IMG/VR virus record: IMGVR_UViG_3300005613_000484
Span: 1 to 20,948 of that record
Reading direction: 5' to 3' (one strand)
DNA: 20,948 bases
Origin: a virus
Part shown: piece after piece, positions 803 to 20,948 of the stretch
How the letters are laid out: every line of letters starts with the position of its first letter
Numbering within the stretch: the stretch's first letter is position 1
The notes under the pieces: model-generated
What the model saw: only the letters and a program-made list of their open reading frames with translations
Told to the model about the DNA's origin: nothing
Database searches by the model: none
Position numbers and translations under genes: made by a program

Positions 803-3800
803 TCATTCTGGGAAGATATAGGTGTTGGTGCCGATGTTGAATTGCATGTTCGTGGTCCCGAGTCCCTGAATGCCAGGATGATTCGTTGTGTTTCCAAAGT
901 GAAGTACGCTATTCGTTACGTCCCAGTGTAAATTCGTGAGAGCAATCCATTCTGTGCCGTCGTGATATGCGAGATTGCCTACGGCGCCTTCTGTGTTGGC
1001 AAGGTCTTGGTCTCCCCATATTCCCGTGGCTGAACCCGTGCTTCTGAACACCTGGCCTGTGGTTCCGCCTACTGCCGTGAACTGGGTAAGGTCTCCTGCC
1101 TTCAGTGGCTGAAGTAGGTCTGCGGCCTGATAATTGGCCGTGACAATAGCATCTGCAAGAATGAAAGCGTCAGTCACATTATCGTTCACAACAACGTCTG
1201 CCGCTATGAATGCTGCCGTCACCCCGTTTGAGACTATGGTATCGTCTGCCTGCCAGTCTGCCTCTGCGTCTGAGTTGGTCCAGCCGGTTCCGTCGTATGA
1301 CAGATATTCCCCGGATGATACGCCGGTTGTATCAACGTCTGAAAGGTCGCTTAATGCGCTCGCGCTGATCGTATCCCAGAAGCCTGCCCCTGTTCCTGTG
1401 GCCTTAAATACCTGCCCTGTAGTTCCACCAAGCGCGGTAAACTGCGTGAAGTCACCAGCCTTTAGAACGCGCAATAAATCTGCCGTGTTCAAGGTGTTGG
1501 ATAATGAAGAATCTGCAGAGACAAAAGCATTTGAGACAACTGTATCTGCCGCAACAAAGGCGTTAGAGACTATAGTGTCGTCTGCTCTCCAATCTGTCTG
1601 GGCGTCGTAATCTTCCCATTGTGTTCCGTTGTATCTGAGATAATCGTTTGAAGCTACCCCTGTCGTATCTACGTTGTTAAGGTCGCCGATGTTGCTTGAC
1701 CCGGTTAAGAAGCTCGTACCCTCAAGACCGTCTACGGTATCACAGTCTGTTCCGGTCCCCGATGCTCCGCCAAGCGCGGTCATTACGGCGTTCCATATGG
1801 CTATCAGGCTCCCATTGGTCCATGCCGATGCGCCTCCAGTAGAATACACAATGTCGTTCGATGTAGCCGTGTCTACGATGTTGGCAAGGTATTGGTTGGT
1901 CGTTTCTCCAATTCCGAGTACCGCAATCGTGTTGGAAAGCGTTGACGTGTTCCAATTCGTTCCATCCGATGACAGAATGAACGCATTAGTTGATGGCGGG
2001 ACGTTGGTAATCGCGCCTATGTCTATGTTCGTGGCTTCCGTTGTCGGTACCTGCCAGTCCGGGGCGGTTCCCATGCCAAGACTCTTGAGAAATGTTCCCG
2101 CGGTTCCAAGTGCGAGTTCCTGCCAGTCAGAGTTGCCGTCTGAATATGCTATCTTCCAAGCTCCGCTGAAGTTCGCGTTGGCGATATTTGTAAGACCTGA
2201 ACCATCTCCGGTATGGGTGCCTGCGAATGTCCCCGCCCAGTCTCCCGTTGTGGTTCCTGTTGGGTGCATCCAGCCATAGTAATGTGCATTTGTCAGAACA
2301 TTGGTGTTAAAATTCCATGTCCCTTCTGTATCTGTGTACCATAGAATATCGCCAAACAATTTGCTTTGAGATCCTACGAAATATCCCTTTTCTGGTATGC
2401 CTAATGTGAACGAGTTTTCATATCCGATTGGCGCGAATGGTCCTCCTGGAAAATAGACCGTATCGAGAAAACTTGTTACAGAGCTATTGTCCTTTCCAAT
2501 CATTCCAAAGGCACTTTCTGCGGTTCCTCCTATCCATATCGTTGAATTGGTCGGCGTTTGCCTCTTGATGAACTGGGTTGTTCCAGAAAAGACAAGATCG
2601 TTGCTATTCGTGTTTCCGCGGTCCATGATCGTTTGCCATGTTTCATTTGCTGCAATCGCGTATTGATTACTGACGGCCGTGAACACTGGGTCTACTTCTG
2701 TGAATACGGCATTCTTCCATTGCAAGATATCTGTTCGATCAAAAGAGAAAGCGCCTCCAATGGCTCCAAAGGATATTTCATCATGCGATATCGTGACCCT
2801 TGGCGTATCTCCCCATGACGGGTCTGGTTCGCCAACTATAATTGTTCCATTTGTTGCACGTACAGTATCCGACAATGATGTCATGGTGATATTATCTACT
2901 GTGACAATTGTTGTTCCGCCGTTTACTGGCCATGCATAGAACTTTAAGTAAGGCGTTGATGGTCCGCCACATTCAATCGTCGTGGTCTTTGTGCCGCTTG
3001 TGTAATAGTCTCCCCCGCCTCCGCCATCGTCTCCGGTCTTAGACCCCGCATAAACTAGCACGGCTGCTCCGCCAACGTCGTTGACGATAGTAATGTCAAA
3101 CGTCAATTCATACTGTTTTTGCGTCGTAAACTCTGTGTCATAGACAAATTTATGAAAGTCAGTATTTGTTGTACTCGAATATCGGAAAACTCCATTCGTC
3201 ACTGACCATAGAGGGTCTGGGAATATCCAATTATTCGTGCTGTCTGCGGTCCCGTTAACGATTACGTTTGTTCCAAATATAGACAATGTGGAGTTGGTTG
3301 CCTGTAGTGCATCAAGATATTGCGTCGTTCCTCCCAAATAGGTGTTATCTGTTGTAGTGTAAACATCTCCGGTGTAGGACTCAACGTACAGGGGTGTCCC
3401 TGTCGCAAAGTTATCTGATACCCAGTTGGTTGTAGCATATAGATTGCTCGCCGCGGTCCATACGGGGTCTACTTCTGTTACTCCTGCGCCTGATACATAG
3501 TTGGTTATGTCGCCCCAGTTTGGTATCTGGCTATCTGTGTTCGTCCCCTGGTCATAGTCAATGATGGTCCCATAACTACCTGAAACCACTGTTCGAACCC
3601 TGTCGTCTGAGTATCCGTTCGCGGCCATTGCGCTATCTGGGGCTGATATCCATTCTACTGGCCATGCGTTCGTGACGATCGATCCCGAGATATCATAGAC
3701 AGTAAAATAGAATCCCGTGGAGACAACATCGTGCGCGAGTGGTGACGCCAGTACCGTGAAATTAGTTGTCATGTGACAAAATACGTGTGGTGCTCCCCCG

Positions 3801-6973: not shown

Positions 6974-7993
6974 TTACGTAGGATTGGCTGTTGCCAGACA
7001 TTCCAGACGTGCAATCCACTGCTCAGAGAGAATTGCCGATGCATACCAGGTGATCCAGCCAACGTAACCCTTCTGACCCAAAGGCTGACTGTGAGACGGT
7101 TTCGGCTGCACCACTTTGATGCCTACCGATTTCATCCCCTGCAGGCGCACGGTGCCATAAGCATCACGCGCAACACAGATGATCGGATACACGTCTGCTG
7201 ACCCGGTGCCAGGGGCTCCATTGGTCAAGAACGTGGTCTGTCCCGGTGTGCCGGTTGCGCCAGCAAACCATGGCGTGAACATTCGCGTCATCACGAAACG
7301 GAAACGGTCGACCTGACCGCGCTCGCCCGGGATACGTGAATTCGGATCGCCGTACTCGGTCACAGCAATGTAACCGGTGATACCCTTGATATCCGCGTAC
7401 AGGTCCGTGTGACACATGGCGAAGAATGCCGGCAGAGTTCCGCGCGTGCCAATCTTGGCTGTCGGGCTGATCATGCGGCTGATCTCTTTACCATCGTCGC
7501 GGTCGAACTGACGACCGATGCGAAGGAAATCTCCGCGCCTGGGTGCCGATGCCAGCGCGGCACGGCTTGCAGCACCGTTCGCGTAGTAGACATTCGTTCC
7601 GGATTTCAGAACATCGATCGTGACGGATTCAATGGTTTGAGCCATCTGTTCGCCCGAGCGGGTTACAAGAACAGAAAGAATGCTGTCCTCGTGCAGATCC
7701 CGAACCTTGTCGGTCAACTCTGCTACTGCGCCATACTGCTTCAGAATGGCGGTATAATCCGTCTTCTCAAGCGGCTGACTGGCCGGGGGAATACCCTCTG
7801 CCAAAGGTGCAGTACTTACTGTGAAGGAATGGTAACGGCGCCATTTGATCGTGTCGCCAGCATTACGCTTGGCGTCGTCGATCTGCGCAAAGCGCTGTGT
7901 TACCAGAAGCGGCTGCCCGACCTTCAGGAGCCGTGCAACGGCTTGAATACCCACTCTTGGGGCTATCTCACCGTATGTGATGGTGTCATTCAT
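6974..7993 (-). CDS. Major capsid protein, N4-gp56 family (339 aa)
   Basis: Forms the icosahedral shell. Residues 48-63 (DTIKWRRYHSFTVSTA) followed by PLAEGIPPASQPL and LKQYGAVAELTDKVRDLHED (83-102) match the signature of the N4-gp56 major capsid family: an FRRY-like strand, PLTEG, then QYG..~.itDK...~HED. These are HK97-fold coats. Length 339 is normal for the family. The later sequence contains an expected FFAMCHTDLYADIKG segment and a beta-rich C-terminal half ending in WITWYASAILSEQWIARLE. Start is ATG at 7993 with GGAGG 7 nt upstream; that GGAGG lies inside a long stem-loop (8001-8060). Upstream are scaffold and a zinc-ribbon gene, downstream the post-capsid protein. Confidence 0.93.
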   Translation of the reverse strand: MNDTITYGEIAPRVGIQAVARLLKVGQPLLVTQRFAQIDDAKRNAGDTIKWRRYHSFTVSTAPLAEGIPPASQPLEKTDYTAILKQYGAVAELTDKVRDLHEDSILSVLVTRSGEQMAQTIESVTIDVLKSGTNVYYANGAASRAALASAPRRGDFLRIGRQFDRDDGKEISRMISPTAKIGTRGTLPAFFAMCHTDLYADIKGITGYIAVTEYGDPNSRIPGERGQVDRFRFVMTRMFTPWFAGATGTPGQTTFLTNGAPGTGSADVYPIICVARDAYGTVRLQGMKSVGIKVVQPKPSHSQPLGQKGYVGWITWYASAILSEQWIARLECLATANPT

Positions 7994-8000
7994 GTGACGA

Positions 8001-8060
8001 CCTCCGAGTTTTCGCGGAAAACCACTTCCCGCATTATTGTTTTGCCGCCAAACTCAGAGG
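8001..8060 (-). promoter_or_regulatory. Stem-loop sequestering the capsid gene Shine-Dalgarno
   Basis: In the minus-strand RNA, CCUCUGAGUUU (8060-8050) pairs with AAACUCGGAGG (8011-8001), 11 pairs including one G-U. The stem continues inward after a small internal loop: GCGG (8048-8045) with CCGC (8017-8014), and AAAAC (8043-8039) with GUUUU (8022-8018). This leaves a loop of about 16 nt. The total is about 20 pairs. The 3' strand holds the whole GGAGG Shine-Dalgarno (8005-8001) of the capsid gene, whose AUG at 7993 lies just outside. No U-run follows, so it is not a terminator. Pairing is seen directly; the control role is inferred. Confidence 0.8.
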
Positions 8061-8088
8061 TTTCTTTACGGCGTTAGTGCTCTACTTG

Positions 8089-8370
8089 CTAAAGAATGAT
8101 CGTATCTGTCCTTTTTTTGCAACTCACCCTTGAGCATCTTGTTTCTATCACTGTGCCTGGGCCCATGATGCCAGAGGCAAAGGGCATTCTACAGTGTTCA
8201 CAGCGATAAATAGTAAAATCCTTTTCACAGACGCAACAGTGTGCTTCTACTGCCGTGCCGTTGTTGTCGCGCATTCCATCAAAACAAGTCTTGCAGAAAG
8301 GACACCGTGTGTGCGAGTTCTCAACGATGTTCTCTTTTCTAAGCTGCAAGACTTTTTGACTCAAACTCAT
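8089..8370 (-). CDS. Double zinc-ribbon protein with Com-like C-terminal half (93 aa)
   Basis: ATG at 8370 overlaps the scaffold stop (ATGA). Four Cys pairs are visible: C23-C26, C45-C48, C57-C60 and C79-C84, giving two successive zinc ribbons. The C-terminal ribbon, YRCEHCRMPF then TVIETRCSRVSCKK, resembles Mu-type Com (RC..C....F....~.EIRCPRCK, from memory); its last knuckle is CxxxxC rather than CxxC. In phage Mu, Com binds mom mRNA and opens a stem that hides the mom start site. Here the gene lies between scaffold and capsid genes, and 28 nt after its stop begins a stem that hides the capsid Shine-Dalgarno. An RNA-binding translational regulator is therefore a reasonable inference; a DNA-binding or structural zinc protein is the alternative. 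Confidence 0.85.
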   Translation of the reverse strand: MSLSQKVLQLRKENIVENSHTRCPFCKTCFDGMRDNNGTAVEAHCCVCEKDFTIYRCEHCRMPFASGIMGPGTVIETRCSRVSCKKRTDTIIL

Positions 8371-9344
8371 ACGTCGTCGTCTTCCTTGCGGTTCGACTCT
8401 TCTTCAAATGCGGCCTGGGCTTCCTCTTCGCTCAATTCTGCGCCGGGGTCGACCGTGGCCTTTGGCGTGCCGGTGCGGGACGAATGCTTGTGGATATCGT
8501 CCTTCTTGGCCTGCTTCTTCTGCGCCTTCTCAACTGCTGCCGCTTCAGCCTCTTTTTGCTCTGCGGTCTTTGCGTCCAGAGTAGATATGTTGTTGGCCGT
8601 CTTATAGATGCTTAGTCCAGATGCGACTGTGGCTGGATCGAACGACTCAAAGAGCGCCTGAATCTCTTCGCTCTGCTTGTCGGCCCATTCGTTGAACTCG
8701 TCTGACGCATAGATATCTTTTGCATCAGTATGACCAAGATCCGCAAGGGATTTATACGTCTTCTCTGCGGCCTTTGAGAATGCCTGGTCTGCGATGTATC
8801 CCGATATCGGCTTCAATGCCGGAACTATTGATCCAGTTGCCTTCTGGGCAATCTTGCCCGAAATCAACTTGAGAACCTGAGATATGCCGGGATACTTCTC
8901 GTTCCACTCTTCCAGGCTTATCTCCGTGTCGTTGCCCTCTTCGTCAACGTCTGCGATTTTGACGTCCTTTAGCTCTTCGAAAACTGAATCAGCGATCCCC
9001 GTAATAGCCTCGTCATCGATTCCTGAAAACTCCTGAACCTGTACCGCTTTTGTTTCAGCCTTTTTCTCTTCGGTTTTCTTCTCGGCTGCGGCTGCGTCGG
9101 CGGCTTCCTGTTCCGCCTTGGCTTCGGTCTCTGCGGCTGCGTCTTTCTCTGCCTGAGCTGCGGCTGCGGCGTCGTTCTCAACCTTTTCCACTGCTGAATC
9201 TGCTGCGGATGTATCGTCGGAGATGCTAGAGTCGCTTTCGGCGTCAAATATATCGGTCGCCTCGGCGTCTGGCACGGTTTGTTCCGAATGCTCTTCGGCT
9301 GCCTCTGCGGGCCGCTCTGTGGCTTCTGTGCTTTCTTCAACCAT
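8367..9344 (-). CDS. Capsid scaffold protein (325 aa)
   Basis: ATG at 9344 chosen because AGGAGAAG lies just upstream; an ATG at 9374 would overlap the preceding gene and lacks a ribosome-binding site. The protein is highly acidic. Residues 1-105 are low-complexity Ala/Glu (AAAAAQAEKDAAAETEAKAE and similar), likely disordered or coiled coil. Residues 110-230 form a more ordered helical region (ISLEEWNEKYPGISQVLKLI), and the C-terminal 70 residues return to charged helix (EKAQKKQAKKDDIHKHSSR, ending in EDDDV). Acidic, helical, Ala/Glu-rich composition with a basic patch near the C-terminus, encoded just upstream of the coat gene, is typical of scaffolds of HK97-fold phages. It would direct shell assembly and be lost on maturation. 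Confidence 0.85.
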   Translation of the reverse strand: MVEESTEATERPAEAAEEHSEQTVPDAEATDIFDAESDSSISDDTSAADSAVEKVENDAAAAAQAEKDAAAETEAKAEQEAADAAAAEKKTEEKKAETKAVQVQEFSGIDDEAITGIADSVFEELKDVKIADVDEEGNDTEISLEEWNEKYPGISQVLKLISGKIAQKATGSIVPALKPISGYIADQAFSKAAEKTYKSLADLGHTDAKDIYASDEFNEWADKQSEEIQALFESFDPATVASGLSIYKTANNISTLDAKTAEQKEAEAAAVEKAQKKQAKKDDIHKHSSRTGTPKATVDPGAELSEEEAQAAFEEESNRKEDDDV

Positions 9345-20549: not shown

Positions 20550-20825
20550 CTACTCGCCGCCCCTCATCTTGTCGTTCTGTTGCTCCCTAAGATAACGAAG
20601 TAAAATTGCTTTATCCCCACCAATCCCGCCGCAACGCGGACACTTGAATAGCTTGTCGTGGTTTGGAAGCATCACGACTGTTGCGATTGTGTGGCCGCAG
20701 TTGCATAACTTTGGGGTAGGCAACAGAACAAATGAGTCCACCGTACAGGCGGAAGGCGGCTTTTCTCTTGGCTCGAAGCATCTGCACGACCAATAGCCGC
20801 ACCTTGGACAACCCGTGTACTGCAT
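20550..20825 (-). CDS. Cys-rich zinc-finger-like protein (91 aa)
   Basis: Most likely start ATG at 20825 (MQYTGCPRCGYWSCRC), 1 nt after the stop of the partial upstream gene; alternatives at 20837 and 20858 are possible. Cys clusters: CPRCGYWSCRC near the N-terminus, CNCGH in the middle, CPRCGG near the C-terminus, enough for at least one zinc ribbon. The end NDKMRGGE resembles the 55-aa protein at 19399-19566. DNA- or RNA-binding is plausible. No family named. Confidence 0.75.
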   Translation of the reverse strand: MQYTGCPRCGYWSCRCFEPREKPPSACTVDSFVLLPTPKLCNCGHTIATVVMLPNHDKLFKCPRCGGIGGDKAILLRYLREQQNDKMRGGE

Positions 20826-20826
20826 G

Positions 20827-20948
20827 TCAGCCTTCATCCTGCCGGTGACTCCCGGCATTGAGGCTTATCTCGTATTCTGCCCTAGCATGCCTCATGCCAG
20901 CACGGGCTATGTAGGACTGCCAGTTGTTCCGCCCGTTTGACACGCACA
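20827..20948 (-). CDS. C-terminal part of an unknown gene (5' end outside window)
   Basis: Open from the right edge for 39 codons to a TGA at 20829-20827. Readable residues include SNGRNNWQSYIARAGMRHAR, then AEYEISLNAGSHRQDEG. The other two minus frames are closed by stops, and the stop sits 1 nt before the next start, as is normal for this cluster. No function can be given. Confidence 0.45.
   Translation of the reverse strand, partial: CVSNGRNNWQSYIARAGMRHARAEYEISLNAGSHRQDEG

Follow-up and report, generated by a model that had tools for sequence, protein, structure and literature searches.

Gene order and the Com-like protein

The window analyzed here, a whole IMG/VR virus record of 20,948 bases with its gene set on the minus strand, raises the question of whether a small cysteine-rich gene, placed just before the major capsid gene, encodes an activator of capsid translation. 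The gene order on the minus strand is terminase, portal, scaffold-like gene, a 93-aa Cys-rich ORF and the N4-gp56 capsid gene. The scaffold-like gene (8367–9344, minus strand) encodes 325 aa from an ATG at 9344, with an AGGAG Shine–Dalgarno (SD) sequence, and contains no Cys; Pfam and PHROGs scans returned no family match of its own, and relatives carry a Cys-free gene of the same type in the same slot. The start ATG of the com-like gene (8089–8370, minus strand) overlaps the scaffold stop (ATGA). The proposed target, the gene for an N4-gp56 family major capsid protein (6974–7993, minus strand; TIGR04387, E 1.3e-74; phrog_1357, E 3e-47), lies 95 nt from the com-like ORF.

As judged from sequence comparison, the 93-aa ORF is a tandem Com-like zinc ribbon. 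It contains 10 Cys, and the Cys pairs described in an earlier note on this DNA are present as CPFC, HCCVC and CEHC, plus a wider CSRVSC (C79/C84). The Cys4 ribbon pattern C-x2-C ... G ... IE.(K/R)C-x2-C occurs twice, the last pair being CxxxxC. This wide last pair is common to two other loci, L028 (CTRREC) and L029 (CTRRSC), and the related loci L009 and L106 also score more than one ribbon. A profile of the capsid clade, built without the window and without phage Mu, matched the window ORF at E 6.6e-10 and phage Mu Com at E 5.7e-10, with the next unrelated ORF among 18,503 ORFs at E 0.95. The same profile matched the N-terminal half of the window protein at 2e-4 and the C-terminal half at 9e-8, so that similarity to Com was found in a profile search, the C-terminal half included. 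The second ribbon is indeed Com-like, as had been proposed, but the likeness is not confined to it: both ribbons resemble Com.

Taken alone, the window protein gave no Com match in a plain single-sequence Pfam scan, in which the PF10122 cut-off was not reached, and nothing significant in single-sequence searches of Pfam, PHROGs, NCBIfam, PDB sequences, viral contigs and phage records. The family link therefore runs through its relatives. Their typical sequence, RCPxCNxLLxKGxLxxGTxIEIKCxRCK, aligns with phage Mu Com, and several members of the clade exceed the curated Pfam cut-off for PF10122 (Zn_ribbon_Com; 22.9 bits), with scores of 38.7 (L036), 26.8 (L012), 26.7 (L024) and 25.8 bits (L031), compared with 36.8 bits for Mu Com. 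Clade members also match the PHROGs named translational regulator and gpCom. The AlphaFold model of the window protein is of moderate quality (pLDDT 71.6, six strands), and a fold search with it returned only noise. When 289 and 85 genomes around two host genomes were searched with the Pfam Com model, the only matches were weak zinc-ribbon ones in longer frames, one of them barely above the cut-off.

Two further zinc-ribbon ORFs were observed. A 102-aa ORF in the window (20550–20858, minus strand) is zinc-ribbon-like, with weak family matches (Com E 0.023, below the cut-off), and was unmatched by the clade Com profile. In L036 (5053–5400), a second Com-like ribbon is fused to an apparent HNH-type endonuclease domain in a 115-aa ORF downstream of the head genes.

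A predicted leader helix masks the capsid ribosome-binding site

The earlier note had also placed a stem 28 nt past the zinc-ribbon gene, hiding the capsid ribosome-binding site (RBS), and folding bore this out. The 5' arm ACCTCTGAGTTT (8061–8050) pairs with AAACTCGGAGGT (8011–8000) over 12 bp, with one G-U. The 5' arm (8050–8061, minus strand; ACCUCUGAGUUU) overlaps the operator described below, while the 3' arm (8000–8011, minus strand; AAACUCGGAGGU) contains the capsid SD GGAGG (8005–8001), which stands 7 nt before the capsid ATG (7993). The masking helix is formed in the minimum free energy fold (z −2.35; 4 of 200 shuffles as good). Within the 132-nt leader its probability is 0.89, and all six bases of CGGAGG (8006–8001) are paired with P = 1.0. 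Without Com, the capsid start region is hidden by RNA structure, as inferred from folding and comparison only. No Rfam family matched any of the 15 loci searched.

A putative Com operator lies within the masking helix

SELEX and probing established that Com binds a hairpin loop of the form 5'-CC(N)2-3GAG-3' (Nowacka et al. 2019, PMC6483171). The published site has an invariant closing C-G pair on a variable stem of 3–4 bp, and the bipartite preference is NGAGNNCC(N)2-3GAGNNCCNN, with RNA I being CGAGAACCAGAGAGUUCCGG (PMC6483171). In the window, a putative Com operator hairpin (8050–8063, minus strand) comprises the stem AAAC (8063–8060)/GUUU (8053–8050) and the loop CUCUGA. It lies inside the 5' arm of the RBS stem. 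Its core, CC-UCU-GAG, fits the published site, and the C-G-closed 4-bp stem is intact; the usual GA before the stem and C after it are absent. Leader hairpins elsewhere in the clade are exemplified by CGAGAACCAUAAAGAGUUCC (L022), AGAGAACCGUUUUGAGUUCC (L036) and GAAGUCCUAGAGACUC (L015). The bare motif is not rare, occurring three times on the minus strand of the window and not at all on the plus strand, compared with two per strand in shuffles, and hence only placement, covariation and RBS complementarity count as evidence.

When the stem was required to have 4 bp or more and the loop to be N2-5, 30 of 53 leaders of loci with a Com-like gene (Com+) contained the Com site; dinucleotide shuffles gave 1.09 (maximum 5), and the Com-less capsid leaders 3 of 91 (Fisher 2e-13). 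The strict form, with flanking GA and C and the general loop, was found in 29/53 Com+ leaders, compared with 0.14 in shuffles and 2/91 Com-less leaders; one of these two belongs to L130, a locus with a Com remnant. The site is absent or present only as a variant in 16 of the 53. Stem positions covary, with 18 cells changed on both sides compared with 5.2 in shuffles; none of 500 shuffles reached this value, and slid controls gave no more than 5. The loop GA, which masking does not need, is conserved. As a positive control, four of the known com-modification junctions that were examined, those of B3, Phipami28, GEC_PNG14 and Mcat3, carry the same strict hairpin, three of the four twice.

The Com hairpin and the RBS-masking helix use the same bases and are mutually exclusive folds. 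In most loci, the operator is complementary to its own RBS, with duplexes at −17.4 kcal/mol, compared with −11.1 kcal/mol for the RBS of other loci (permutation p 5e-5). Measured against letter-shuffled operators, this complementarity has a mean z of −3.74, with p < 0.05 in 31 of 36 loci, whereas the equivalent segment of Com-less leaders gives a z of −0.21; control segments from the same locus rarely pair as well with the RBS. The window operator pairs with its own RBS at −21.3 kcal/mol, ranking first among 36 RBS regions (p = 0.007 against letter-shuffled operators). Since the hairpin excludes the masking helix, Com binding should free the RBS and turn capsid translation on. In an equilibrium folding model, imposing the operator fold on the complete window leader carries a penalty of 11.5 kcal/mol, so that Com probably acts during RNA synthesis. 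The modeled probability of the bare hairpin in nascent RNA is at most 0.19; given this value and the cost of the fold, the protein and timing must do work.

Conservation among capsid relatives

A small Cys-rich ORF occupies this slot in nearly all of the closest capsid relatives; counting unique leaders, 55 contain a Com-like ORF no more than 400 nt from the capsid gene. In a capsid tree of 154 rows, every Com+ locus falls in one group of 61 with a support of 97, of which 56 are Com+, and the Com-like gene in this clade is nearly always located between scaffold and capsid. The end of the scaffold gene and com overlap in 35 of 47 loci (median −4 nt). The median distance from com to capsid is 79 nt, compared with 22 nt from scaffold to capsid where relatives lack Com. 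The synteny, operator sites and RBS complementarity uphold the earlier expectation that gene and stem are conserved together. The bacterial contigs with the Com+ arrangement were assigned to Lentisphaerota, Kiritimatiellota, Myxococcota and Thermodesulfobacteriota.

Five rows of the clade are not Com+. L021 is cut off before the slot, L130 retains a ribbon remnant and an intact site, and no Com was seen in L002, L052 and L085. Within 330 nt upstream of its capsid gene, L130 contains the Com remnant MANNEGIKIKCPRCGNVVSFSGL, the intact operator GAGAUCCAAGAGAUCC and a masked RBS. In L002 (996–1495), the com slot is occupied by a peptidase M15 gene, and the whole 39.6-kb contig yielded no Com; in its capsid leader the SD is still strongly paired and a CC-TTC-GAG element is present. 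Outside these rows, Stenotrophomonas phage StenR_269 (L005, 3480–3990) has a LAGLIDADG endonuclease gene between scaffold and capsid. A duplicated capsid start, ATGTCTTTTAGTGGTATGCA, precedes this gene and reaches a stop after eight codons, and a GGAGAA/TTCTCC stem covers the old RBS. A com-like ORF that is merely a mobile passenger, comparable to the LAGLIDADG gene in this slot, was ruled out because the ORF is clade-wide and syntenic.

Natural rearrangements and terminator-overlapping sites

In L024, com (1893–2348) lies upstream of the scaffold gene (ATG at 2450), and the capsid ATG is at 3423. The scaffold and capsid leaders each contain an operator (GAAGGUCGUUGAACCUCC and GAAGGUCAAGAACCUCC, respectively) complementary to its own RBS. 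Three other loci (L011, L097 and L101) carry an extra Com-type hairpin, GAGGCUCA(N)AGAAGCCC, between com and capsid, and the 3' strand of this hairpin is shared with an intrinsic terminator, for which it provides the 5' arm and which has a U7–U9 run. This arrangement suggests Com-dependent antitermination beside RBS release, with Com binding inferred from the form of the hairpin. Binding at these sites would also turn expression on, and the sign of control would be the same.

Alternative explanations

The direction of the Com effect is unmeasured, and many phage RNA-binding proteins are repressors; Com could bind the leader and keep the capsid RBS closed, or feed back on late mRNA. Folding, however, predicts that the capsid RBS is closed even without the protein, and the Com hairpin excludes the helix that closes it, just as it would exclude the terminator at the overlapping sites. 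These exclusions favor activation, as for Mu mom (PMC6483171), and we consider repression very unlikely. It is likewise highly improbable, in our assessment, that the stem is an insulator, an RNA processing site or a coupling device opened by ribosomes translating com, with the zinc protein otherwise employed. SD-pairing stems precede many phage genes, and com and capsid are adjacent; yet enrichment of the Com site is confined to loci with com, its loop GA is kept although masking does not need it, and known com targets bear the same hairpin. Translational coupling from com to capsid was ruled out because 28 nt separate the com stop from the 5' arm, beyond the approximately 15 nt covered by a terminating ribosome.

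The activating switch could also be real in the clade and degenerate in the window phage, whose site has flanks that deviate from the clade consensus and whose near relatives L008, L095 and L009 also have atypical sites. We regard this as unlikely, since the CC-N3-GAG core and the C-G-closed 4-bp stem are intact, the RBS complementarity is among the strongest (−21.3 kcal/mol), the metal-ligand Cys are retained and the ORF is open.

A proposed Com-type switch for capsid translation

We consider it highly likely, on comparative grounds, that at this locus, in a group of uncultured phages, a translational activation switch of the Com type has been redirected to the major capsid gene, although binding and activation remain unmeasured. 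The proposal that a Com-type activator acts on coat synthesis has gained support from profile, synteny, site and complementarity; all of this evidence is comparative, with no binding or expression data. In the proposed mechanism, the late mRNA would present scaffold, com and capsid in this order, and ribosomes that finish the scaffold gene probably go on to translate com, as inferred from the overlap of its start with the scaffold stop. In the default state, the 5' segment of the leader (ACCUCUGAGUUU) would pair with the capsid RBS and shut it, which is backed by folding and by the locus-specific complementarity seen among relatives. These bases could alternatively fold into the small hairpin presenting the recognition loop CC(N)GAG. 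By binding this hairpin, probably during transcription, Com would stabilize the local fold and keep the RBS accessible, as inferred from homology and the published site. The capsid may consequently be made only after scaffold and Com; this timing of coat relative to scaffold is an inference from gene order and overlap.

A broader reading, for which we see an even chance, is that the switch is an RNA checkpoint on assembly order and that Com is a general, retargetable activator acting by RBS release and antitermination. Scaffold translation would feed com translation and Com would open capsid translation, so that no shell protein would appear before scaffold; in some phages, Com may also block formation of the terminator between com and capsid.

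The arrangement resembles com/mom of phage Mu (PF10122; PMC6483171) in that a small Cys4 zinc ribbon is encoded just upstream of its target, a hairpin with a CC(N)2-3GAG loop stands beside a start-hiding structure, and activation, here as a proposal, goes through the opening of that structure. Unlike in Mu, the proposed target is the major capsid protein rather than a DNA-modification gene, com is placed after scaffold and before capsid and overlaps scaffold rather than its target, and the operator is itself part of the RBS-masking helix; the window phage has tandem ribbons, and some relatives have extra sites overlapping a terminator. Because the gene after com encodes the N4-gp56 capsid, the system would work like com/mom without being com/mom. 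A Com homologue followed by its target gene is also found in transposable and other phages (B3, Phipami28, Chuche and Mcat3), and in B3, Phipami28 and Mcat3 the target is preceded by the strict hairpin seen in the capsid clade; in contrast to that clade, the target in all four is a Dam/D12-type methyltransferase. Each Com relative whose neighborhood was examined in a phage collection precedes a Mom or DNA methyltransferase gene. The scaffolding protein of phage P22 lowers its own synthesis, and P22 regulation likewise balances scaffold and coat production at the RNA level; we know of no zinc-ribbon activator or RNA switch on the P22 coat gene.

In the literature searched, Com is tied to mom or used as an RNA-binding tool, and our search, whose coverage excluded subscription papers, turned up no published case of a capsid gene under Com control. 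The Com family itself is known; what would be new here is a Com-type switch with a capsid target, its competing-fold design and, possibly, antitermination. Dozens of natural operators that covary also give a sharper definition of the Com recognition code than could be had from one natural site alone; this is of practical use, as gene-editing delivery employs Com and its hairpin as an RNA tether. The locus would represent a protein-operated RNA switch with mutually exclusive folds and offers a direct test of the timing of coat relative to scaffold in phages. If the proposal is true, Com controls the structural protein most abundant in these phages, a clade whose hosts extend to Lentisphaerota, Kiritimatiellota, Myxococcota and Desulfobacterota.
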